In this document: positions 1,898 through 35,405 of the stretch, piece after piece
How positions within the stretch are numbered: the first letter of the stretch is position 1
Layout: each line of letters starts with the position of its first letter
Assembly: GCA_022775765.1 (NCBI GenBank)
Contig: JALFKC010000066.1
Coordinates: 1-37,276 of the forward strand
Length of the DNA: 37,276 nucleotides
Source of the DNA: Campylobacter sp.
GTDB taxonomy: Bacteria; Campylobacterota; Campylobacteria; Campylobacterales; Campylobacteraceae
Reading direction: 5' to 3'
Translations under genes and position numbers: made by a program
Notes under the pieces: model-generated
Told to the model about the DNA's origin: nothing
The model's input: only the letters and a program-made list of their open reading frames with translations
Databases searched by the model: none

Positions 1898-3366
1898 TTT
1901 AAACTCTCATCAAAATATTTGGTTTTATTTTTGATATTTTTGTAAAGTAGCTTAGAGTTTGAATTCGACCTAAAAATCTCTGCTAACTCATTTCTAGTTT
2001 CATCGCTTTTTAGGAACTTTCCACCTTCATCATAATACTCAATAAGTCTTTCAATGATTTTATCATCGCCCATTTGTCTTAAATTTTTAACCGAGGCTTT
2101 ATCTTTGATTTCTGATACAAAATTCTTTTTATGATATGCTGTGAGTTTATGAATATTTGCTTCGCTAAAATCTAAATCTGAAAGTATGTTTTTATTTATA
2201 ATGACAGCTTCAAACTCTTCTATGCACTTTTTTAACTTTTCATCGATATTTTTTGTTGTATTTTTATTGATATGTGTTAGATCATTCCTTATACTACCTA
2301 TTTTATCTTTAAGAGTTCGCAAAAGCTCAAATTTCTCACAATTTAAATCTAAAAAAAATTGATTTTGATGAGTAAAATGATAATTTTTATGAACAGATTG
2401 ACCACTACTAGATAAAAAATTAGAACACAACTCATATACATCTAAATTATCGATACTTATATGGGTATTATTGTCATTTTTAATCAGTTGCTTTTCATTC
2501 ATCTTTTCAAAAAGATATCTAATAACACCCTCTATCAAAAATTGAGATGAATTTAAATAATACTCTTTTTGGTATAAAAATTTTGCAACTACAAAATAAA
2601 TTTCATAATTTTGCTTTTTATCAAGGCCATCAAAAAATGAAATTTCAGCCAAAATTTCATTAATAAAATCTTTCAAAAATTCAAGTTCGTTCTCTTTTTC
2701 GTGCTCTAAAATTTCCTTTAAAAAAGGATAAATTTCTATACATTTATAAATTTGATTTGACAAAAATGCGTTGCTAAATTCACTAAGTTTTATGTAAATT
2801 TCACTATTTAATGCCATTTGTGGCACTTTTATAAATTGCTTAAAACTAATCAAAATAAATGAAATTTGCATAATTTTAGCAAATTCATCAAGGCTTACAA
2901 ATTCAAAAGTTTTCTTTTTTTCTGATTTTATAATCTTAGCATAGATTATCTTTACATTATTTTCACCACCAAGTTTGCTAAGCATCGTCGCAAATGGTGC
3001 AATAAAGCTCACATCTCTATCTCTGTGCGTTATGTCAATGATAATCTGTTCGTTTGCAACTGAAATTTCATCTAAAATCATAGAGAAAATTTGTCTATAA
3101 TCATCGTTGATTTCTAAAGTTTTAATATTTTTGTTGGCAATTTCATTATTTAATGTATTTTCGTCGCTAAAACGATTGGTGACATTTTTTATCTCAGTTT
3201 TTCCGCCCAAAAATAGAAATTTTGCACCCTGATTTTGCATAAAAATCGCATCGCTTGAAGTGATAAAATCGCCATCCTTTAAAAAGTCAAAGCCCCCTGC
3301 TTTGTATTTGCAAGGGCTTAAAAAGCTTTCATTTTCTACTGTTCTTAAAAATGAGATGATTTTCAT
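1894..3366 (-). CDS. CARF-HEPN ribonuclease, Csx1/Csx2 (MJ1666-like) type
   Basis: A 490-residue type III ancillary effector. An N-terminal CARF-like Rossmann domain ends in IIIDITHRDRD (residues about 108-118), corresponding to the ITHG-type loop of Csx1/Csx2 proteins; the usual Gly and following hydrophobic/Pro residues are replaced by charged ones. A helical C-terminal half carries the HEPN RNase motif R-x4-H as IRNDLTH (residues about 359-365). Such proteins are activated by cyclic oligoadenylate made by Cas10 and cleave RNA non-specifically. I chose the ATG at 3364-3366, preceded by AAAGGA at a proper distance, over an ATG 15 bases upstream that lies before that ribosome site. It overlaps the end of the cas7-insert gene by 38 bases and is coupled to csx20 downstream. 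Confidence 0.8.
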   Translation of the reverse strand: MKIISFLRTVENESFLSPCKYKAGGFDFLKDGDFITSSDAIFMQNQGAKFLFLGGKTEIKNVTNRFSDENTLNNEIANKNIKTLEINDDYRQIFSMILDEISVANEQIIIDITHRDRDVSFIAPFATMLSKLGGENNVKIIYAKIIKSEKKKTFEFVSLDEFAKIMQISFILISFKQFIKVPQMALNSEIYIKLSEFSNAFLSNQIYKCIEIYPFLKEILEHEKENELEFLKDFINEILAEISFFDGLDKKQNYEIYFVVAKFLYQKEYYLNSSQFLIEGVIRYLFEKMNEKQLIKNDNNTHISIDNLDVYELCSNFLSSSGQSVHKNYHFTHQNQFFLDLNCEKFELLRTLKDKIGSIRNDLTHINKNTTKNIDEKLKKCIEEFEAVIINKNILSDLDFSEANIHKLTAYHKKNFVSEIKDKASVKNLRQMGDDKIIERLIEYYDEGGKFLKSDETRNELAEIFRSNSNSKLLYKNIKNKTKYFDESLK

Positions 3367-5269
3367 TGATATCCTTTGCATGCGGTAAAACGTTCTTTTT
3401 GTTTGTGGATCTTAGCCCCATGTAGTCAAAATCTCCTTGTTTGCCATATCTTAGCATTGTTTTTAATTCTTGCATTCTTACTTCGTCCCAAATAGATTTT
3501 TTATCAGATTTTATTTTACTGAGTATATATTCTTCAAAATTTTGCTTGAAATCACCCATATTTTTATCAGAAATTTTTGGCTCAAAAAAGTCGCCATTTT
3601 TATCAAAAACTTTCTCATAACGCTTAGAAATATCGTGCAAAATTAGCCTAGGCTTAATCTCTATACTTCCCATTCCAAGGGGTTTTGCCATCCCTATTTT
3701 ATGATAACACCCATCCGGCAAATCAAGCACAAAAATTAGTGCTCCAAGCTCGGTAGCATTTAAATTTTCAAATCTAATTTTACCTTTAAAAATAGCACCT
3801 TCTCGCATTGCATTGATTTTTTTAATAATTTTTTTGTTTTCTCTTTGTTTTTGAGTTATAAAATGGCTAAATTCTTTATGATGATACATTTTATAACCTC
3901 GAATTTTAGTATCATCATCGTAGTGCTTCATTTGAGCCTGATTACTAATATTACCGTCATTTTGCTCCAAATATAGATTAAAACTTGTCGGTTTTGGCAT
4001 AGAAAGCAAAATTTCCTTCTCCTCAAATCTCGCTTTATTTTGTGAATTAGCATCTTCAAAAAATACTCTACTAGCAAACGCACCATCTTTACCAAAAATC
4101 GCCTCTGCCATATCAAAACCGTCATTTTTATCCAAATAACTCTGCGAAATCAAATCTCTAACCCTATGTTTGTATGGGATTCTAAAATACGGTGTGTGCC
4201 CAAAATAGACATTTTCGCCATCTTTGACATAAAAACAAGGAATGCCGTTTGGATATCTTAATTTGTCATTTTCTATTTTTTCATTAAGCTTTTCTATTAA
4301 ATTTAAAAAACCACCACGCTTAAATTTTGGCTGACTATCATACACATATGGCAGAATATCTCGCCTGTAATATAAGTTAATTTTTTCATTTTTATTTTTT
4401 GGAATTTTAACCTTATAATACACTTTTTTGCGATTATCTTTTTTCTTATCCTTGCTAATAGAGCCTATTTTTCCAGTAAATACCTCAAAGTAGTCATATT
4501 TCTCAGAGTAGTCATATTTTTTATTTATCTCAAATTCTGGCATATTTTTGTTTTCAAATGGTTCTAAAAATTTTTTCGTTTCATAAGTTGTTTTAATTAT
4601 ATAAAATTCCTTGTCATTTTCACGTACTAAAATTCCACAATCTGCTTTTGGTAAAAAGTTCTTTTTATTTTTATCATTCTGTTTTACTTCATTATTATTT
4701 TTACATTCTTTTTTCATTATTTTTTCATATGACACTTTTAAACTGTTTTTTGACACACCTGCCACATCTCTATAAAAAAACCTGTTATCGTTGAAAAACT
4801 GAAATTTCGAATATGACGCGATTTCAACCAAATTTCTTACCATTCCACGAATTGAACTTCCAGGGATCGCCTCTTTGCCATTTATACTAAAAAACTCTTG
4901 TTTTGTGATCTCCTTATCATCTTTTTGTTTGGTAGCTTTTTGCGATTCTTTTTTATTAAGAGTAGCATTATTTTTCCCATTATTTTGTTCTTTGAGACTA
5001 TCACCGATAAAAAGCGGGGTTAAATTTTTAATCTCAAGCTCAATATATCCACTAAAATGGTCTTTATGAAACTTACTAAACCCATCACCACTGATGATTT
5101 TATTTTTGCTATCAAGCTCTAAATCAAGCACAGAGTCAGTTATTACATCATCATTTAACGACACAAAATTATAAGGTGCAAAAGCCGGCTCATTTGATGC
5201 TAACTTCTCTTTCTTATCGTTGTTTCTACCTTGATTAAAACCTTTTGTATTTGTATAATTCTTAGCCAT
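3329..5269 (-). CDS. Cas7-insert RAMP protein (TIGR03986-like), type III-D
   Basis: A 646-residue RAMP subunit of the type III-D effector. The start region APYNFVSL (residues 31-38), GYIELEIKNLTPLFIG (74-89), the glycine-rich RAMP loop IPGSSIRGMVRN (135-146) and the late loop HKIGMAKPLGMGSIEI (about 535-550) fit the single-RAMP family TIGR03986. Between these a long lysine/asparagine-rich region separates the RAMP motifs, as in the Cas7-insertion subunit of III-Dv complexes, which lines the crRNA backbone and contributes one target-RNA cleavage site. The start ATG overlaps the csx19 stop by 8 bases and has AAAGGAG upstream. The C-terminal tail past residue 560 has no motif I recognise. Confidence 0.85.
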   Translation of the reverse strand: MAKNYTNTKGFNQGRNNDKKEKLASNEPAFAPYNFVSLNDDVITDSVLDLELDSKNKIISGDGFSKFHKDHFSGYIELEIKNLTPLFIGDSLKEQNNGKNNATLNKKESQKATKQKDDKEITKQEFFSINGKEAIPGSSIRGMVRNLVEIASYSKFQFFNDNRFFYRDVAGVSKNSLKVSYEKIMKKECKNNNEVKQNDKNKKNFLPKADCGILVRENDKEFYIIKTTYETKKFLEPFENKNMPEFEINKKYDYSEKYDYFEVFTGKIGSISKDKKKDNRKKVYYKVKIPKNKNEKINLYYRRDILPYVYDSQPKFKRGGFLNLIEKLNEKIENDKLRYPNGIPCFYVKDGENVYFGHTPYFRIPYKHRVRDLISQSYLDKNDGFDMAEAIFGKDGAFASRVFFEDANSQNKARFEEKEILLSMPKPTSFNLYLEQNDGNISNQAQMKHYDDDTKIRGYKMYHHKEFSHFITQKQRENKKIIKKINAMREGAIFKGKIRFENLNATELGALIFVLDLPDGCYHKIGMAKPLGMGSIEIKPRLILHDISKRYEKVFDKNGDFFEPKISDKNMGDFKQNFEEYILSKIKSDKKSIWDEVRMQELKTMLRYGKQGDFDYMGLRSTNKKNVLPHAKDINENHLIFKNSRK

Positions 5270-5813
5270 TTTTAACTCCTTTTAAATCTACCAATCTAAA
5301 ATCACTATAATATACTTGATCTGTTTCGCAATGTTTTCTAATATAATTTCGCCTAACAAGTTTTACAAAAGATTGTTCGGACACCTCAAGCGGAATAATA
5401 AACTCACTTCCACTCTCGCCGATAAGCCTAAAAAAGCCATTCTTAAGTGGCACGATAGGGTTTTTGCCACCGCCAAGTAAAGTAAGTTCTTCGTCGTTAA
5501 AACCTTCATTTTTATCAATAAATTCATCTTTTTCATCGTTATATCTAACTCTTGCTTTTAACGATTCAGAACTTCTATAGATAAAAATTTCTCCATATTG
5601 ATTGAAAATCCTAGCTGATTTTATTTCGTTTTTAGGTGGAATTTTACCGTCATAAAACTCTAATTTATTATCTTTTACAAGGGTGAATTTTATATTTTCA
5701 TCAAGCCAAAAAATTCCAAATCCATCTTTTATCTCAAAATCTCCATTTTCAAGCGGAATTTTTACACCATTTTTTAAAATTTCATAAATTTCACTACCAA
5801 AATTTTTTATCAT
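5262..5813 (-). CDS. csx19: Csx19-like subunit of the type III-D complex (TIGR03984-like)
   Basis: A 183-residue protein in the position where type III-D operons carry csx19. Its C-terminal signature RRNYIRKHCETDQVYYSDFR (residues about 153-172) followed by LVDL resembles the RNYI...TGQV..D.R end of TIGR03984/Csx19 proteins. The N-terminal half is beta-rich with many short charged strands and no catalytic motif. In the III-Dv complex Csx19 is a structural subunit lacking RAMP motifs. It overlaps cas7-2x by ATGA and the next gene by 8 bases. Identification rests on the tail motif plus gene order. Confidence 0.75.
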   Translation of the reverse strand: MIKNFGSEIYEILKNGVKIPLENGDFEIKDGFGIFWLDENIKFTLVKDNKLEFYDGKIPPKNEIKSARIFNQYGEIFIYRSSESLKARVRYNDEKDEFIDKNEGFNDEELTLLGGGKNPIVPLKNGFFRLIGESGSEFIIPLEVSEQSFVKLVRRNYIRKHCETDQVYYSDFRLVDLKGVKNG

Positions 5814-7126
5814 TTTTGACTCCTAAAATCGCTAACAAAGTTATTTAACTCTATATTTGACAATTTCTTGCCATCTTTTTTAGCTACCATTGCGCCTTTA
5901 AAAACTCCACGCCCTATATTTTTGCCACCGCCAACAGCTAAAAATCCTGTGCAAAGGTCTTTTGCCACCAAAAGTAAAAGCCCAATTTCAGCATTTTTTG
6001 GCTCAAAAATTGTGATTTTTGCATTAATTTGCGTTTTATTATCGTCTCCGCCCATCAAAACCTCACTATCAAAAAGTGCTCCATCAATCGTCGCACCGCT
6101 AAAACGGTCAATTTTGGTGCGTTGGTGAAGTTTTCTAGCGACATTTTTTATCGCATTTTCGCTGATTTTAATCCGCCCTTTTTTGGCATTTTTCTCATTT
6201 TCATCCACAAAACCAAAAAGATTTTCAACGATTTCGTCCCTATTTTTATTTTTATCATCTTTATTTTCATCGCTTCTAAAAGTCCTAGCGATTTTTAATG
6301 CTTGATTTCTAATCGCTCCTTTTAGGCTACTTCCGCTCAAAATAAAATCACCATTTTCCTTTAAATTCGCAATATCCGCATCGGTTTGAGTGTAGGCTGA
6401 GCCAATTAGCAAAGTTGTTTTTAAGTTTAGTATCAAATCAAGCTCAAATTTATTTAACTTTGGCGTTTGAAGTGCGAAATTATAATTATTAGTGAAATTT
6501 TCATTGATATAATTTTCAAAGGCCACACCACCACGCGAAAAATCATATTCACAAATCTCAAGGCTTATGTTTTTTAGCTTTCCTAGACCACTATTTGTTT
6601 TCGCTCCAACGCTAAATCCGCGTTTTAAAATCGTAAGAAAAATATCCAAAATAGCTTTAAAATCACTATTTTCGTGCATTTTTCTAAGCGTAAATTCCGC
6701 CTTAAAATCAAACTCACTTCCAGCACAAACCACCTCAAAATCAAAAAGTGCCGAATCTTTTGCAATTCCACTTTTTTCGTCAATTTTAATGCCATTTCTA
6801 AGTGAAATTCTTTGCGAATTTTTAACATTTTTGCAAGAAATTTCATCGCCATTTTCGCTCAAAACCGCATCGCTAATGCTAATGGCACTAAATCTATTTG
6901 ATGAGCCAAAAAATTTATCAAACGCGTTTTCGTCAAAATCGTATTTTTTAAACTCATTTCTAATTACGCCAACAAGCGAAGTAGCAGGGATAAACGGCAA
7001 GCCATTTGCATCTTTTAGCACGGGTGCATCGATAAAATCGCCATCGCCACAACCGATATTAAAAGCGGTTTCGTTTTGAAATTTCGCCCTAATGAGAAAT
7101 TTTTTAAGAATTCTAGCAGTTTGCAT
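5810..7126 (-). CDS. Cas7-2x: two fused Csm3-like Cas7 domains
   Basis: A 438-residue protein with two consecutive Csm3/Cas7 folds. Domain 1 (about 1-205) has the acidic loop GDFIDAPVLKD (candidate RNA-cleaving Asp33), the glycine loop IPATSLVGVIRN, a thumb region ending in DSALFDFEVV (124-133) and FSVGAKTNSGLGKL near its end. Domain 2 (about 225-430) has TDADIANLKENGDF (candidate Asp249/Asp251), LSGSSLKGAIRN, the classic Csm3 thumb HQRTKIDRFSGATIDGALFD (334-353) and the late loop GGGKNIGRG. Fused Csm3-type proteins are normal in type III-D; they hold the crRNA and cut target RNA at fixed spacing. Start ATG shares one base with the stop of the previous gene (TAATG) behind a GGAGG site. Confidence 0.88.
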   Translation of the reverse strand: MQTARILKKFLIRAKFQNETAFNIGCGDGDFIDAPVLKDANGLPFIPATSLVGVIRNEFKKYDFDENAFDKFFGSSNRFSAISISDAVLSENGDEISCKNVKNSQRISLRNGIKIDEKSGIAKDSALFDFEVVCAGSEFDFKAEFTLRKMHENSDFKAILDIFLTILKRGFSVGAKTNSGLGKLKNISLEICEYDFSRGGVAFENYINENFTNNYNFALQTPKLNKFELDLILNLKTTLLIGSAYTQTDADIANLKENGDFILSGSSLKGAIRNQALKIARTFRSDENKDDKNKNRDEIVENLFGFVDENEKNAKKGRIKISENAIKNVARKLHQRTKIDRFSGATIDGALFDSEVLMGGDDNKTQINAKITIFEPKNAEIGLLLLVAKDLCTGFLAVGGGKNIGRGVFKGAMVAKKDGKKLSNIELNNFVSDFRSQK

Positions 7127-9330
7127 TACGCCTCCTTTTTGTGTCTTAGATATCTTATTTTGGCGATTAACACTCTTTTTTGAAGCTCAAAAGATTTGTT
7201 GCTCTTTACAAATTCGTCAAAAAGAGGATATTTGCTTGATGGAATTTCGATCTCTAAATTCTTAGCTTTTACGCCTTTATCAGCCATTTTTTGATTGAAA
7301 GCTGTTGGATTATTTTTGGTATCAAGCTCAAATTCTATCTCATTAAAATTTTGAGCTCTATTTACAATGCTTTCAAGTCTTGAATATTCGCTAGTTGTGA
7401 GTTTATCCTCTTGATCATTGTCATCTTTATTGGAATTTTCATTGATTTTATAATACCCAATAGGATTTTCAAAGCTCTTATCCAAAACCATATCTTTGTA
7501 TAAAATCTCACTTAAAATTTCAAAAACTTTTTCTTTTTGATTTGGCGAAATTTTTTCGTAATCAAAGCCTGAAATTTGCACAGTTTTTTGTGCGCCATCG
7601 TGCAGTATTTTTGCATTTTCAAAAGTTTGCGAGTTTTGTGAATTTTCCGCTTTTTTCGCGGTTTTATCTGAAATTTTAAGATCGCTGAAATTTTCATAAA
7701 TTTCAACCTGCCCGTAACCAAATTCTTTTAATTCGCCAATGCCATTTTTAAAAATTTCAGTGTCTATTTCTTTGTCACAAACTATCTTAAAAACGCTTCC
7801 GGCGGCAAATCCAAATGTTTCGGCGACTTTGCATTTATAGCTTAATTTATAAAATTTCTGCCTTGAAAATTTCGCATTTAAGCTTATCTGTAATTTTGCA
7901 TGAGTTAAATTTTCTAAGTAATCTTTTAAGGTCTTTGCATTTGGACTAAAAACGCCATTTTCATCGTATAAAATAATCGGACTTTGTGCCACGATATAAA
8001 ATTGTTTTGCCAACATTTTTAGCGATTTTTTAGGTGCAATTTTTATGGTTGCGATGGTGTTAGAATACCCTGCACTTTTGGATCTGCCAAGCTTTAGATT
8101 AAAAATTCCACCATCACCGCAAAGCTCATTTTTTAGCCTTTTTAGCAGATTTTCATCGCAGACTATTTTAGCGACGAAAATCTGATCTTTGCAAAGTGCC
8201 TCATAGACAAAAATCGCACCATTTTGGGCGTTTTCATCAAAAATTTCGCCCTGGGCATTTTTTCGTGCGTCATCAATGACAGAACTGTTTTGCGTCTGCC
8301 TTACTCTTTTAGTATGAAAAAAGCTCTCTTTTAGTGGTGACTTCACGGAAATCTCAGTACCATTAATAGTAGCGAACTCGCCAATACTGCAAGTTTTGAT
8401 ATCAGTTTGTTTTTTATAAAAAAAATCATCATAAATTTGTGCGTTATCGCTATATTTTTGCTTTTTAAGCGAGTTTGGTGCGTGAGAGTAAATTTTGCCA
8501 TCTTCATAAAAATATCCATTTTTTAGCGTTACTTTTTCAAAATCACGCTTTAAGTTCTCATCTTTGATTTTGGCTAAAATCGCTCCTTTTAGCGTGGTTG
8601 CAGGGATAAAACTAAGCGTGGCTATATTAAAATCATCGCCTTTTTTGTGCGTCAAAGCAACAGGTGAAGTTAGTTTTAAAATGATAGAATTTTCATCTAT
8701 TTTTGATGAAAATTCACTAATTTCTTGCAAAATTTTGCTATTTTTTGCACCATTTTGCGATATATTTTGTGCCCCGCTCTCTAAAATTTCGCACCTAATC
8801 TCGCCAAGACCACGATTTCTAGCAAGCCCGATGCGTTTTAAGTTTTTGACTGAATTTTTAATCAGCCTTTCATCTTTTTTATCGTATGAAAAATTTGCCT
8901 CAAATACTAGCCCTTTTTTAGCTACTCTTTTGCGGCGCAAACTGCCATTTTTAGCCACTCCATTCTTATCAATAGAGGTTTGATTTAGAACTATTGAATT
9001 AAGATTTAAAACGCTATTTTTCGAAAAATCCAAGCTCAAAGCCTTGTAAAATTCCGCGTCCTTTAAAAGTGCGTCTTGCACCGATATAGTGCCATTTTCG
9101 TGTGCTGTGCCAAAAATTTTATCTACTTTTTTTGCGACTTCATCATCGTTAAAATTTTGCATTTCTAAAATTTCAGTTGCACTTTCTCTTAAAACGCCCT
9201 TTAATCTTTTTGCCGGTATGTAAAAACGCCCAAATTCATCACTAATCGTGTCGATATCGATCAACCCTTCGCCATCGCCATTTGTGATAAGTGCATTACT
9301 TTCTAGGGTAATTTTTAAAATTTTAGTCAT
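7126..9330 (-). CDS. Cas7-Cas5-Cas11-type fusion (Csx10-like), type III-Dv
   Basis: A 734-residue fusion. Residues 1-185 form a Csm3-like Cas7: acidic loop GLIDIDTISDEFGR (Asp25 or Asp27 is the candidate cleavage residue), IPAKRLKGVLRES, and GLARNRGLGEIRCE. Residues about 212-545 form a Csx10/Cas5-like region with FIPATTLKGAILAK, LKLGRSKSAGYSN and a final glycine-rich loop LKEFGYGQVEIYE. The remaining ~190 residues are low-complexity then helical (about 590-734) and take the place of the small subunit Cas11; no separate csm2 gene exists in the operon. This is the same domain order as Cas7-5-11 of the Synechocystis III-Dv complex. The Cas11 assignment of the tail is the least certain part. Overlaps cas10 by ATGA. 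Confidence 0.8.
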   Translation of the reverse strand: MTKILKITLESNALITNGDGEGLIDIDTISDEFGRFYIPAKRLKGVLRESATEILEMQNFNDDEVAKKVDKIFGTAHENGTISVQDALLKDAEFYKALSLDFSKNSVLNLNSIVLNQTSIDKNGVAKNGSLRRKRVAKKGLVFEANFSYDKKDERLIKNSVKNLKRIGLARNRGLGEIRCEILESGAQNISQNGAKNSKILQEISEFSSKIDENSIILKLTSPVALTHKKGDDFNIATLSFIPATTLKGAILAKIKDENLKRDFEKVTLKNGYFYEDGKIYSHAPNSLKKQKYSDNAQIYDDFFYKKQTDIKTCSIGEFATINGTEISVKSPLKESFFHTKRVRQTQNSSVIDDARKNAQGEIFDENAQNGAIFVYEALCKDQIFVAKIVCDENLLKRLKNELCGDGGIFNLKLGRSKSAGYSNTIATIKIAPKKSLKMLAKQFYIVAQSPIILYDENGVFSPNAKTLKDYLENLTHAKLQISLNAKFSRQKFYKLSYKCKVAETFGFAAGSVFKIVCDKEIDTEIFKNGIGELKEFGYGQVEIYENFSDLKISDKTAKKAENSQNSQTFENAKILHDGAQKTVQISGFDYEKISPNQKEKVFEILSEILYKDMVLDKSFENPIGYYKINENSNKDDNDQEDKLTTSEYSRLESIVNRAQNFNEIEFELDTKNNPTAFNQKMADKGVKAKNLEIEIPSSKYPLFDEFVKSNKSFELQKRVLIAKIRYLRHKKEA

Positions 9331-34256: not shown

Positions 34257-34348
34257 TGCTGATTTTACAGGAAATCTTTTGCTACGCAAAAACGCGTTGC
34301 TGATTTTACAAGAAATCTTTTGCTACGCAAAAACGCGTTGCTGATTTT
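34257..34348. repeat. 41-bp tandem repeat, two full units plus a partial
   Basis: Units 34257-34297 and 34298-34338 differ at one position (ACAGG versus ACAAG); a third begins at 34339 and merges into the structured element after ten bases. Each unit holds a small hairpin TTTTGC-TAC-GCAAAA and an ACGCGT site. Units abut without spacers, so it is not a CRISPR array. Confidence 0.95.
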
Positions 34349-34440
34349 CATAGGTGTGTTTTAAGGGAGCATACTGATAGTATGTGACCCAAAAACACAT
34401 ATAAGAAAAGCGTTAAATCCAGCCGAGTTGAGGAATAAAC
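34343..34440. repeat. Structured repeat element, copy A
   Basis: Nested hairpin: outer stem GATTTTC/GAAAAGC (34343-34349, 34405-34411; one mismatch), middle stem GTGTTTT/AAAACAC (34356-34362, 34392-34398), GGG/CCC (34365-34367, 34388-34390) and tip CATACT-GAT-AGTATG (34370-34384). A tail TTAAATCC...GAGGAATAAA follows. Copies B and C keep the same layout. Strand of action unknown. No protein frame explains it. Confidence 0.75.
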
Positions 34441-34474
34441 AATAATAAATTTGATAAACAAATAAACAATATAA

Positions 34475-34585
34475 GGAGGACAGGGGCTTCAAAGTTGCGA
34501 GGACCAGCCACTGTCCCCCTTAACAACCCACAACCCTGACCGACGCTAGAGATGCGGATAGTAGTTTGCTTACGCAAACATCCGC
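34475..34585. other. GC-richer structured spacer segment (possible ncRNA)
   Basis: A hairpin GGAGGACAG/CTGTCCCCC (34475-34483, 34511-34519; one mismatch) encloses GGCT/AGCC, and a second nested stem GCGGAT..GTTTGC-TTAC-GCAAAC-ATCCGC sits at 34554-34585. The stretch is much richer in GC than the spacer around it, and no coding frame is evident. Further on, ATCCG/CGGAT plus a T run (34644-34675) may be a weak terminator. Function unknown; an expressed RNA is only a suggestion. Confidence 0.45.
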
Positions 34586-34814
34586 AGATTATTTAAATTA
34601 AAAACTTATTTACAAATAAACAATTTGGGGCAGACATTCAGATATCCGATTACAGAAAACAGAGAACGGATTTTTGACTTAAATTTGGTTAAATTTATCT
34701 AATTGTAATTTTTAATTAGATTAGTAAAATCAAATTTGAGTAAAATGCCTAGAATAACAAAATAAAACTTAAATTTGCAAATAAATAATTCAAGAGAGAT
34801 TGTGTGTAATTAAT

Positions 34815-34912
34815 AAAATCGTAGTGGACTTTCAAGGGCACGCACTTATGGTGCATAAGCACAAAAAGTTCGCTAGGATTTAGGATAAATCCAAGCCAGG
34901 TTGGGAAATAAA
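34815..34912. repeat. Structured repeat element, copy B
   Basis: Same architecture as copy A with different sequence: outer AAATC/GATTT (34816-34820, 34877-34881), middle GGACTTT/AAAGTTC with one G-T pair (34826-34832, 34865-34871), AAGGG and tip GCACT-TAT-GGTGC (34842-34854). Tail ATAAATCC...TTGGGAAATAAA. The tip bases changed in pairs relative to A and C. An alternative tip CTTATG/CATAAG also exists. Confidence 0.7.
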
Positions 34913-34961
34913 AAATAGCAAAGATACTAACAATTCAAGACAGTATCGGCGTAGTTAATTT

Positions 34962-35055
34962 AAACTCGCACCATCCCACGAAGGAGCATACTTTTAGTAT
35001 GTGACTGCTGTGGGTGGTAAGAGTTTAGTTTAAATCCGTCATTAGTGGGGAATAA
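34962..35055. repeat. Structured repeat element, copy C
   Basis: Outer AAACTC/GAGTTT (34962-34967, 35021-35026), ACCA/TGGT, middle CCCAC/GTGGG (34975-34979, 35010-35014), AAGGAG then tip CATACT-TTT-AGTATG (34987-35001). Tail TTTAAATCC...GTGGGGAATAA (35030-35055), like A and B. It ends at the 3' end of the cytochrome gene. Confidence 0.75.
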
Positions 35056-35070
35056 TTTTACTCATTCCCC
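35047..35070 (-). terminator. Possible terminator of the flavocytochrome operon
   Basis: GGGGAAT/ATTCCCC with a ten-base loop spans the stop codon of the cytochrome gene. The AT-rich loop and lack of a clear U tract make it a moderate candidate; it also overlaps the tail of repeat copy C. Confidence 0.45.
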
Positions 35071-35405
35071 TTTCTTAGATAATCTTGCAAAGCCTTAAGC
35101 TCTTCATCATTTATCTCAGTCTTTCTAAAAAATGGCATTGAGTGTTTTCCGTTTCTTACATAAAACGCTATAAAATCACTTGTTAGATCCTCCCTTTCTT
35201 CAAGCACAGCTGGAACACCTGTATCTTTATATAGAACTGCTAAAGCATTAGTTCCTGGCATATTTTTAGCGTGACAAGTAGCACACCAGTATTGATAGAT
35301 CTCTTTTCCTTTGGTTTTTGAACTCTTATCATTTGAACTATTTTCACCAAAAGATAGACTAATACTAACTGCTATTAAAAGTATAAATTTGATTAAATTT
35401 TTCAT
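35058..35405 (-). CDS. Small periplasmic c-type cytochrome
   Basis: A 115-residue monoheme cytochrome c with a Sec signal (MKNLIKFILLIAVSISLSFG), the heme-binding motif CATCH and a likely Met ligand in HSMPFF, ending in a LQDYLRKG helix. It overlaps the flavoprotein gene upstream by ATGA, so the two are made together. By analogy with p-cresol methylhydroxylase, which pairs a flavoprotein with a small cytochrome, it would take electrons from the flavin and pass them to the respiratory chain. That function is inferred from context. Confidence 0.85.
   Translation of the reverse strand: MKNLIKFILLIAVSISLSFGENSSNDKSSKTKGKEIYQYWCATCHAKNMPGTNALAVLYKDTGVPAVLEEREDLTSDFIAFYVRNGKHSMPFFRKTEINDEELKALQDYLRKGNE

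Follow-up and report, generated by a model that had tools for sequence, protein, structure and literature searches.

REP and REPIN sequences are dispersed palindromes that lie mostly between unidirectional or convergent genes, 3' of coding regions, where they often touch stop codons and often form inverted doublets (PMC3733652, PMC3116915). The attC-like OTH-22-1 motif is a folded single strand (PMC8632094), and MRSC-65-2, a very abundant multi-phylum motif with a single long covarying stem, was proposed to be selfish and possibly to act as DNA (PMC11109978). We analyzed a 37,276-nt stretch of a Campylobacter sp. genome (contig JALFKC010000066.1; hereafter, the window), for which an earlier note made from the letters alone had described three diverged copies of one nested-hairpin element. 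The three related nested hairpins are real, and they lie where they had been placed (34343-35055), all on the + strand, as copies (A, B and C) of one element with a shared 5' box, core and 3' side. The element is best seen as a real, selected and widespread structured repeat of the dispersed mobile palindrome kind, with an unusual shared core.

The copies retain different amounts of the element (Table 1). Copy C retains the 5' box, which is degraded in B (the boxes of B and C form a 74% direct repeat) and lost in A, where a 41-nt tandem repeat (34257-34338) takes its place. This tandem repeat consists of two head-to-tail units (TGCTGATTTTACARGAAATCTTTTGCTACGCAAAAACGCGT) immediately 5' of copy A, and related units lie elsewhere in the genome, on contigs C20, C6, C67 and C68. 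Additional dispersed repeats lie between copies A and B (34472-34600 and 34593-34811); one is a hairpin (AGGACAGGGGCTTC...CCAGCCACTGTCC) that recurs in genome G011, and the second is a 220-nt stretch with 86% identity to contig C9 of the window's genome. Copy C has its 3' end 3 nt from the stop of a convergent cytochrome gene. At 35040-35075, the final part of the copy (ATTCCCC) and the last codons of this gene (GGGGAATGAGTAA) make up an inverted repeat, and the C-terminus of the gene product is unlike that of its relatives; the insertion of copy C may have changed the end of the protein.

Table 1 Positions of the element copies, their cores and the adjoining gene in the window.
Feature	Position	Strand	Evidence
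Copy A; 5' part lost, 3' side complete	34337..34435	+	R1 covariance match 66.7 bits; RNA fold z -3.3
Core of copy A, AAGGGAGCATACTGATAGTATGTGACCC	34363..34390	+	Direct sequence; aligned in A1
Copy B, with 5' box AATTCAAGAGAGATTGTGTG...	34784..34911	+	R1 match 34806-34907, 76.9 bits; RNA fold z -4.5
Core of copy B, AAGGGCACGCACTTATGGTGCATAAGCACA; more diverged than the cores of A and C	34834..34863	+	Direct sequence; aligned in A1
Copy C, complete, from 5' box AACAATTCAAGACAGTATCGGCGTAGTTAA to GGGGAATA	34929..35055	+	R1 match 97.2 bits (34951-35052); RNA fold z -6.5
Core of copy C, GAAGGAGCATACTTTTAGTATGTGACTGCT; AG-CU replacing the GG-CC pair	34980..35009	+	Direct sequence; pair types
Cytochrome-type gene	35058..35405	-	Pfam Cytochrome_CBB3, 5.9e-14

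RNA folding set all three copies apart from dinucleotide shuffles (z-scores in Table 1; matched by 0 of 200 shuffles), and DNA folding gave z-scores of -4.9, -3.5 and -4.5 for A, B and C, respectively. The full element is ~160 nt long, with 158-166 nt between conserved flanks in the sister-species genomes G002 and G012. From outside to inside, its + strand forms a short terminal inverted repeat (ATTC/GAAT or AGATTT/AAATCT) and then a loop, followed by the GGCG/CGTC stem and an internal loop of TAG/ATC. Next is a long stem, which has a different sequence in almost every copy. Inside the long stem are AA facing GCA, two pairs (GG/CC, with the variants GC/GC and AG/CU), a tandem G.A and a tip hairpin of 6-7 bp, which opens with a near-invariant G.T pair adjoining the tandem G.A, so that the order of the core is AA-GG-GA-stem-loop-stem-GA-CC-GCA. 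A kink-turn reading of this core was rejected because the three-nt bulge is absent and the tandem G.A has pairs on either side. Two types of element ends occur in Campylobacterota, one (ATATTCAAGACAG...TATGGGGAATT) mainly next to host genes and the other (ATAGATTTTCAAAAATAGGCG...AAGATTTTAAATCTT) mainly within prophage gene clusters.

All the stems, the AAGG-type internal loop and the tip hairpin named in the earlier note were recovered, loop and tip being common to the copies, and two of its descriptions needed amendment. The AAGG sequence is shared but is not a plain loop; it belongs to an ordered motif of AA, GG-CC pair, tandem G.A and tip, with GCA facing the AA. The shared TAAATCC...GGAATA end is likewise present, not as a loose tail but as one half, the 3' one, of additional stems in which the partner is the 5' box (ATTCAAGACAG...GGCGTAGTTAA).

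The covariation reported from the three copies held strongly when it was assessed statistically in an alignment of 31 distinct copies from several phyla. Changes on both sides were found for 16 of the 18 stem pairs, the covariation score was 0.753 (0.177 for shuffled and ≤0.235 for slid controls), and 89.6% of the cells were paired, compared with 59.2% after shuffling, supporting the claim of a selected RNA or single-stranded DNA structure. The second G.A pair also changes on both sides, from A.G to C.A (33 versus 19 copies). For the copies from other phyla, the core belonged to the search pattern and the stems outside it did not, so the invariance of the core in these pattern-found copies is partly by construction. 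On the + strand, the Campylobacterota copies had 38 G.T against 6 A.C (18:3 in the rows of alignment A5), part of this set having come from a model that rewards G.U. This excess points to the + strand as the one required to fold; the signal is suggestive rather than general, because G.T and A.C were even (13:11) in copies that the pattern search found in other phyla.

Copies of the element are dispersed through the window's genome and well beyond it. A BLAST search of this genome with copy A alone detected further core copies (E = 2.5e-5, 0.001 and 0.014), which fold like A, B and C. The search of genomes with a covariance model that had been proposed as a check was performed with a model built from nine copies (R1); covariance models detected about 12-14 copies in the window's genome (~14 at E below 0.002), and R1 had matches in 12 of 60 relatives, with E-values reaching 1e-17 in one genome. 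The universal model (R2) detected the element in 57 of 249 Campylobacterota genomes, representing 16 of 55 genera. Among selected carriers, the R2 copy counts were 73 for Helicobacter canis (G269, on the contig of locus L157), 121 for a deltaproteobacterial MAG (G287), and 49, 35, 23 and 22 for Clostridia (MAGs up to 49).

The exact core pattern occurred in more than 110 stretches of contigs from one genome per species, and those among the matches listed were mainly from Clostridia MAGs, with Helicobacter bilis, H. canis and a small number of other sources; certain single matches are probably due to chance. Repeats of distantly related bacteria from the gut and the environment have this conserved core as well. 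Although copies were found within a Mu-like prophage, an origin from phages or plasmids was rejected, as a prophage copy had no match in 50,697 phage records, the window copies had none in 72,556 plasmid records, and the exact core had none in IMG/VR.

Of 35 Campylobacterota cases, 26 have the 3' end of the element facing a stop codon, at a median distance of 5.5 nt (≤17 nt in 20 of the 26), and the distance from the 5' model end to the upstream stop is always ≥84 nt. Some copies begin 0-15 nt past stop codons. The Clostridia copies sit 3' of rpsS, rplE, rplN, rpsQ, rpsN and rplF, and one copy in G008 is located in the 23S-5S rRNA spacer (L070, 2916-3244), that is, not in the 23S interior, which rejects a 23S intervening sequence. 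In several further relatives, groups of two or three copies are identical, a pattern that one copy in each rRNA operon would produce. Within operons, the antisense orientation outnumbered the sense orientation by 17 copies to 8, which is no more than a tendency and weak alone (p = 0.11). Inverted doublets also occur. No constant neighboring gene was detected across 110 loci, where the largest ORF clusters read through the element itself. Many copies in H. canis (L229-L237) are inside long predicted ORFs; these copies may be translated in frame in the manner of Rickettsia palindromic elements; alternatively, the predicted ORFs may not be real.

Comparison of orthologous sites revealed that the element is present in some genomes and absent from others. 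Among the clostridial loci, the rplN|rplX junction is filled in L170 and a 52-nt gap in L164, the rpsQ|rplN junction is filled in L164 and empty in L170 and L108, and the rpsN|rpsH junction is filled in L164 and empty in L108; the C-termini of the proteins are unaltered between filled and empty junctions. The site of copy C in three relatives (G001, G005 and G008; L282-L284) has no element, with a plain hairpin and T-rich sequence directly after the orthologous gene. In G002, a 158-nt element lies exactly between two conserved flanks, which in G012 enclose a different 327-nt insert, and no target-site duplication was evident at this site, the only one with both flanks aligned. Given that the element is dispersed and its sites are variably occupied, "mobile structured element" suits it better than "an RNA gene".

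Two of the three element sites compared between G002 and G012 are exactly at synteny breakpoints (L063 and L247 of G002). Element copies may be recombination points, and the repeat may thus also shape gene order. In G012, another hairpin repeat, distinct from the element (GAGCCTAGCTTT...CTTCGCTCG...), is found at the element site of its sister genome (L261, C51:13900-15500; L265, C2) and may be a diverged sibling.

The candidate mobilizers were profiled in the carrier genomes. The RAYT/Y1 transposase family (PF01797) was absent from G001, G002, G006-G008, G010-G013, H. canis G269 and the 121-copy MAG G287, was represented in the window's genome by a broken fragment only, and was present in some Clostridia carriers. 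A RAYT/IS200 mobilizer was therefore rejected, given its absence from most carriers, including the two richest in copies. A reverse transcriptase (group II intron or retron) was rejected as the spreader as well, since RVT_1 is sporadic, being detected in only 6 of the 22 genomes searched and missing in most carriers. Tyrosine recombinases (PF00589; a family-level search that was not IntI-specific) were found in all carriers and all controls and are thus uninformative.

Consistent with the earlier statement that the structure matches no known family, neither the window copies nor the distant ones had a match in Rfam 15 at gathering or lax thresholds, and the skipping-rope family did not match. 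The element is apparently unnamed, as the literature compared (supplementary tables aside) gives analogues only. Like REP and REPIN, it is dispersed and multi-copy, lies behind genes, touches stop codons and forms inverted doublets, and the Campylobacterota copies bear GCGTAG and ATCCGTC, which contain the GTAG and CGTC tags of REP, on the two arms. Unlike REP (20-40 bp), it is ~160 nt long, folds in a nested manner and has a conserved core at an internal loop, its GTAG/CGTC is at an internal loop inside the hairpin rather than unpaired at the foot and is not conserved in other phyla, and most of its carriers are without RAYT. Because of these differences in size, fold, core and RAYT, we did not assign it to REP.

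The element resembles the integron attC and OTH-22-1 in that a folded single strand lies right behind a gene, often on the template strand, with variable stems and few conserved positions. Its aligned consensus lacks the RYYYAAC...GTTRRRY pair of attC (GTTAGGC is seen in single copies only), however, and it is dispersed behind resident genes, for example those for ribosomal proteins, without a cassette array. MRSC-65-2 is a close analogue in style, being likewise multi-phylum with dozens of copies per genome, but its UYCCGG repeat is absent from the consensus of the element (A5, A6), whose conserved part is the AAGGGA / GUGACCGC core. As with MITEs, the element is short, non-coding and multi-copy with short terminal inverted repeats; in contrast to MITEs, it is the fold and not the ends that is conserved across its hosts. 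No target-site duplication was visible at the one site with both flanks aligned.

We consider it fairly likely that this is a dispersed REP-like element of ~160 nt that is mobile, or once was, and whose working form is the + strand folded into the long nested hairpin. A protein would read the core (the tandem G.A, the G.T pair, the GG-CC pair and the AA facing GCA) on the folded strand, and would use it in excision, copying or insertion of the element. For the variable stems, pairing would be the sole requirement, and they could therefore drift through compensatory change, while insertions would persist where they are least harmful, just past gene ends. Because many copies run antisense to their operon and no promoter turned up at copies A, B and C, the form that is acted on is probably single-stranded DNA and not a transcript. 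The mobilizing enzyme would be neither a Y1/RAYT transposase nor a reverse transcriptase of the carrier genomes. Counting against this reading, the searches revealed no mobilizer, the resolved site showed no evident target-site duplication, the G.T excess did not extend to the copies that the pattern search found in other phyla, and the antisense excess is weak. More tentatively, and with the odds somewhat against it, the element could represent a multi-phylum class of mobile nucleic acid that spreads via a folded single strand read at its tandem-G.A core by an enzyme that is neither Y1 nor a reverse transcriptase. If the REP-like reading is right, a structured repeat that reaches ~120 copies per genome has escaped annotation in Campylobacterota, Clostridia and other bacteria. 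Such a REP-like class, in which the core is shared and RAYT is missing, would make the spread of RAYT-less palindromic repeats directly testable. The core is also sharply defined enough to be used as bait for its putative protein partner.

The same fold could instead belong to a structured non-coding or cis-acting RNA, with the + strand transcribed and the core binding a protein or a ligand. The tandem G.A beside a near-invariant G.U and the exchange of A.G for C.A fit an RNA three-dimensional motif, and the preference for G.U over A.C in Campylobacterota copies agrees with this, but we regard an RNA family as unlikely, given that promoter-like and terminator-like sites at the window copies were no commoner than chance, that no neighboring gene is constant, that occupancy differs among genomes, and that many copies are antisense to the operon, even within ribosomal-protein operons.

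If the reverse strand were read, the element could act in the mRNA of the upstream gene, as a transcript end, a stabilizer or a processing site. The copies that start 0-15 nt past stop codons and after the 23S rRNA would suit such a role, as would copy C, which occupies the position of the plain hairpin and T-rich sequence of relatives. This seems slightly less probable still, as the G.T/A.C asymmetry favors the other strand in Campylobacterota, some copies lie between genes that are necessarily co-transcribed, the window copies have no terminator-like site, and the sense-orientation minority is sizeable; a role of the sense strand in mRNA is also disfavored as the main function. AT-rich intergenic DNA abounds in weak hairpins, from which unrelated palindromes or terminators might come to look alike by chance, an explanation that is refuted for practical purposes by E-values to 1e-17, by loops conserved across phyla and by covariation well above both controls. 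The REP-like mobile element remains the reading that we prefer.

Elsewhere in the window, RAMP-superfamily genes on the minus strand (3329-9330) probably constitute a type III CRISPR-Cas cluster, and a broken reverse-transcriptase fragment at 723-1001 perhaps represents the remains of an RT-linked Cas1.
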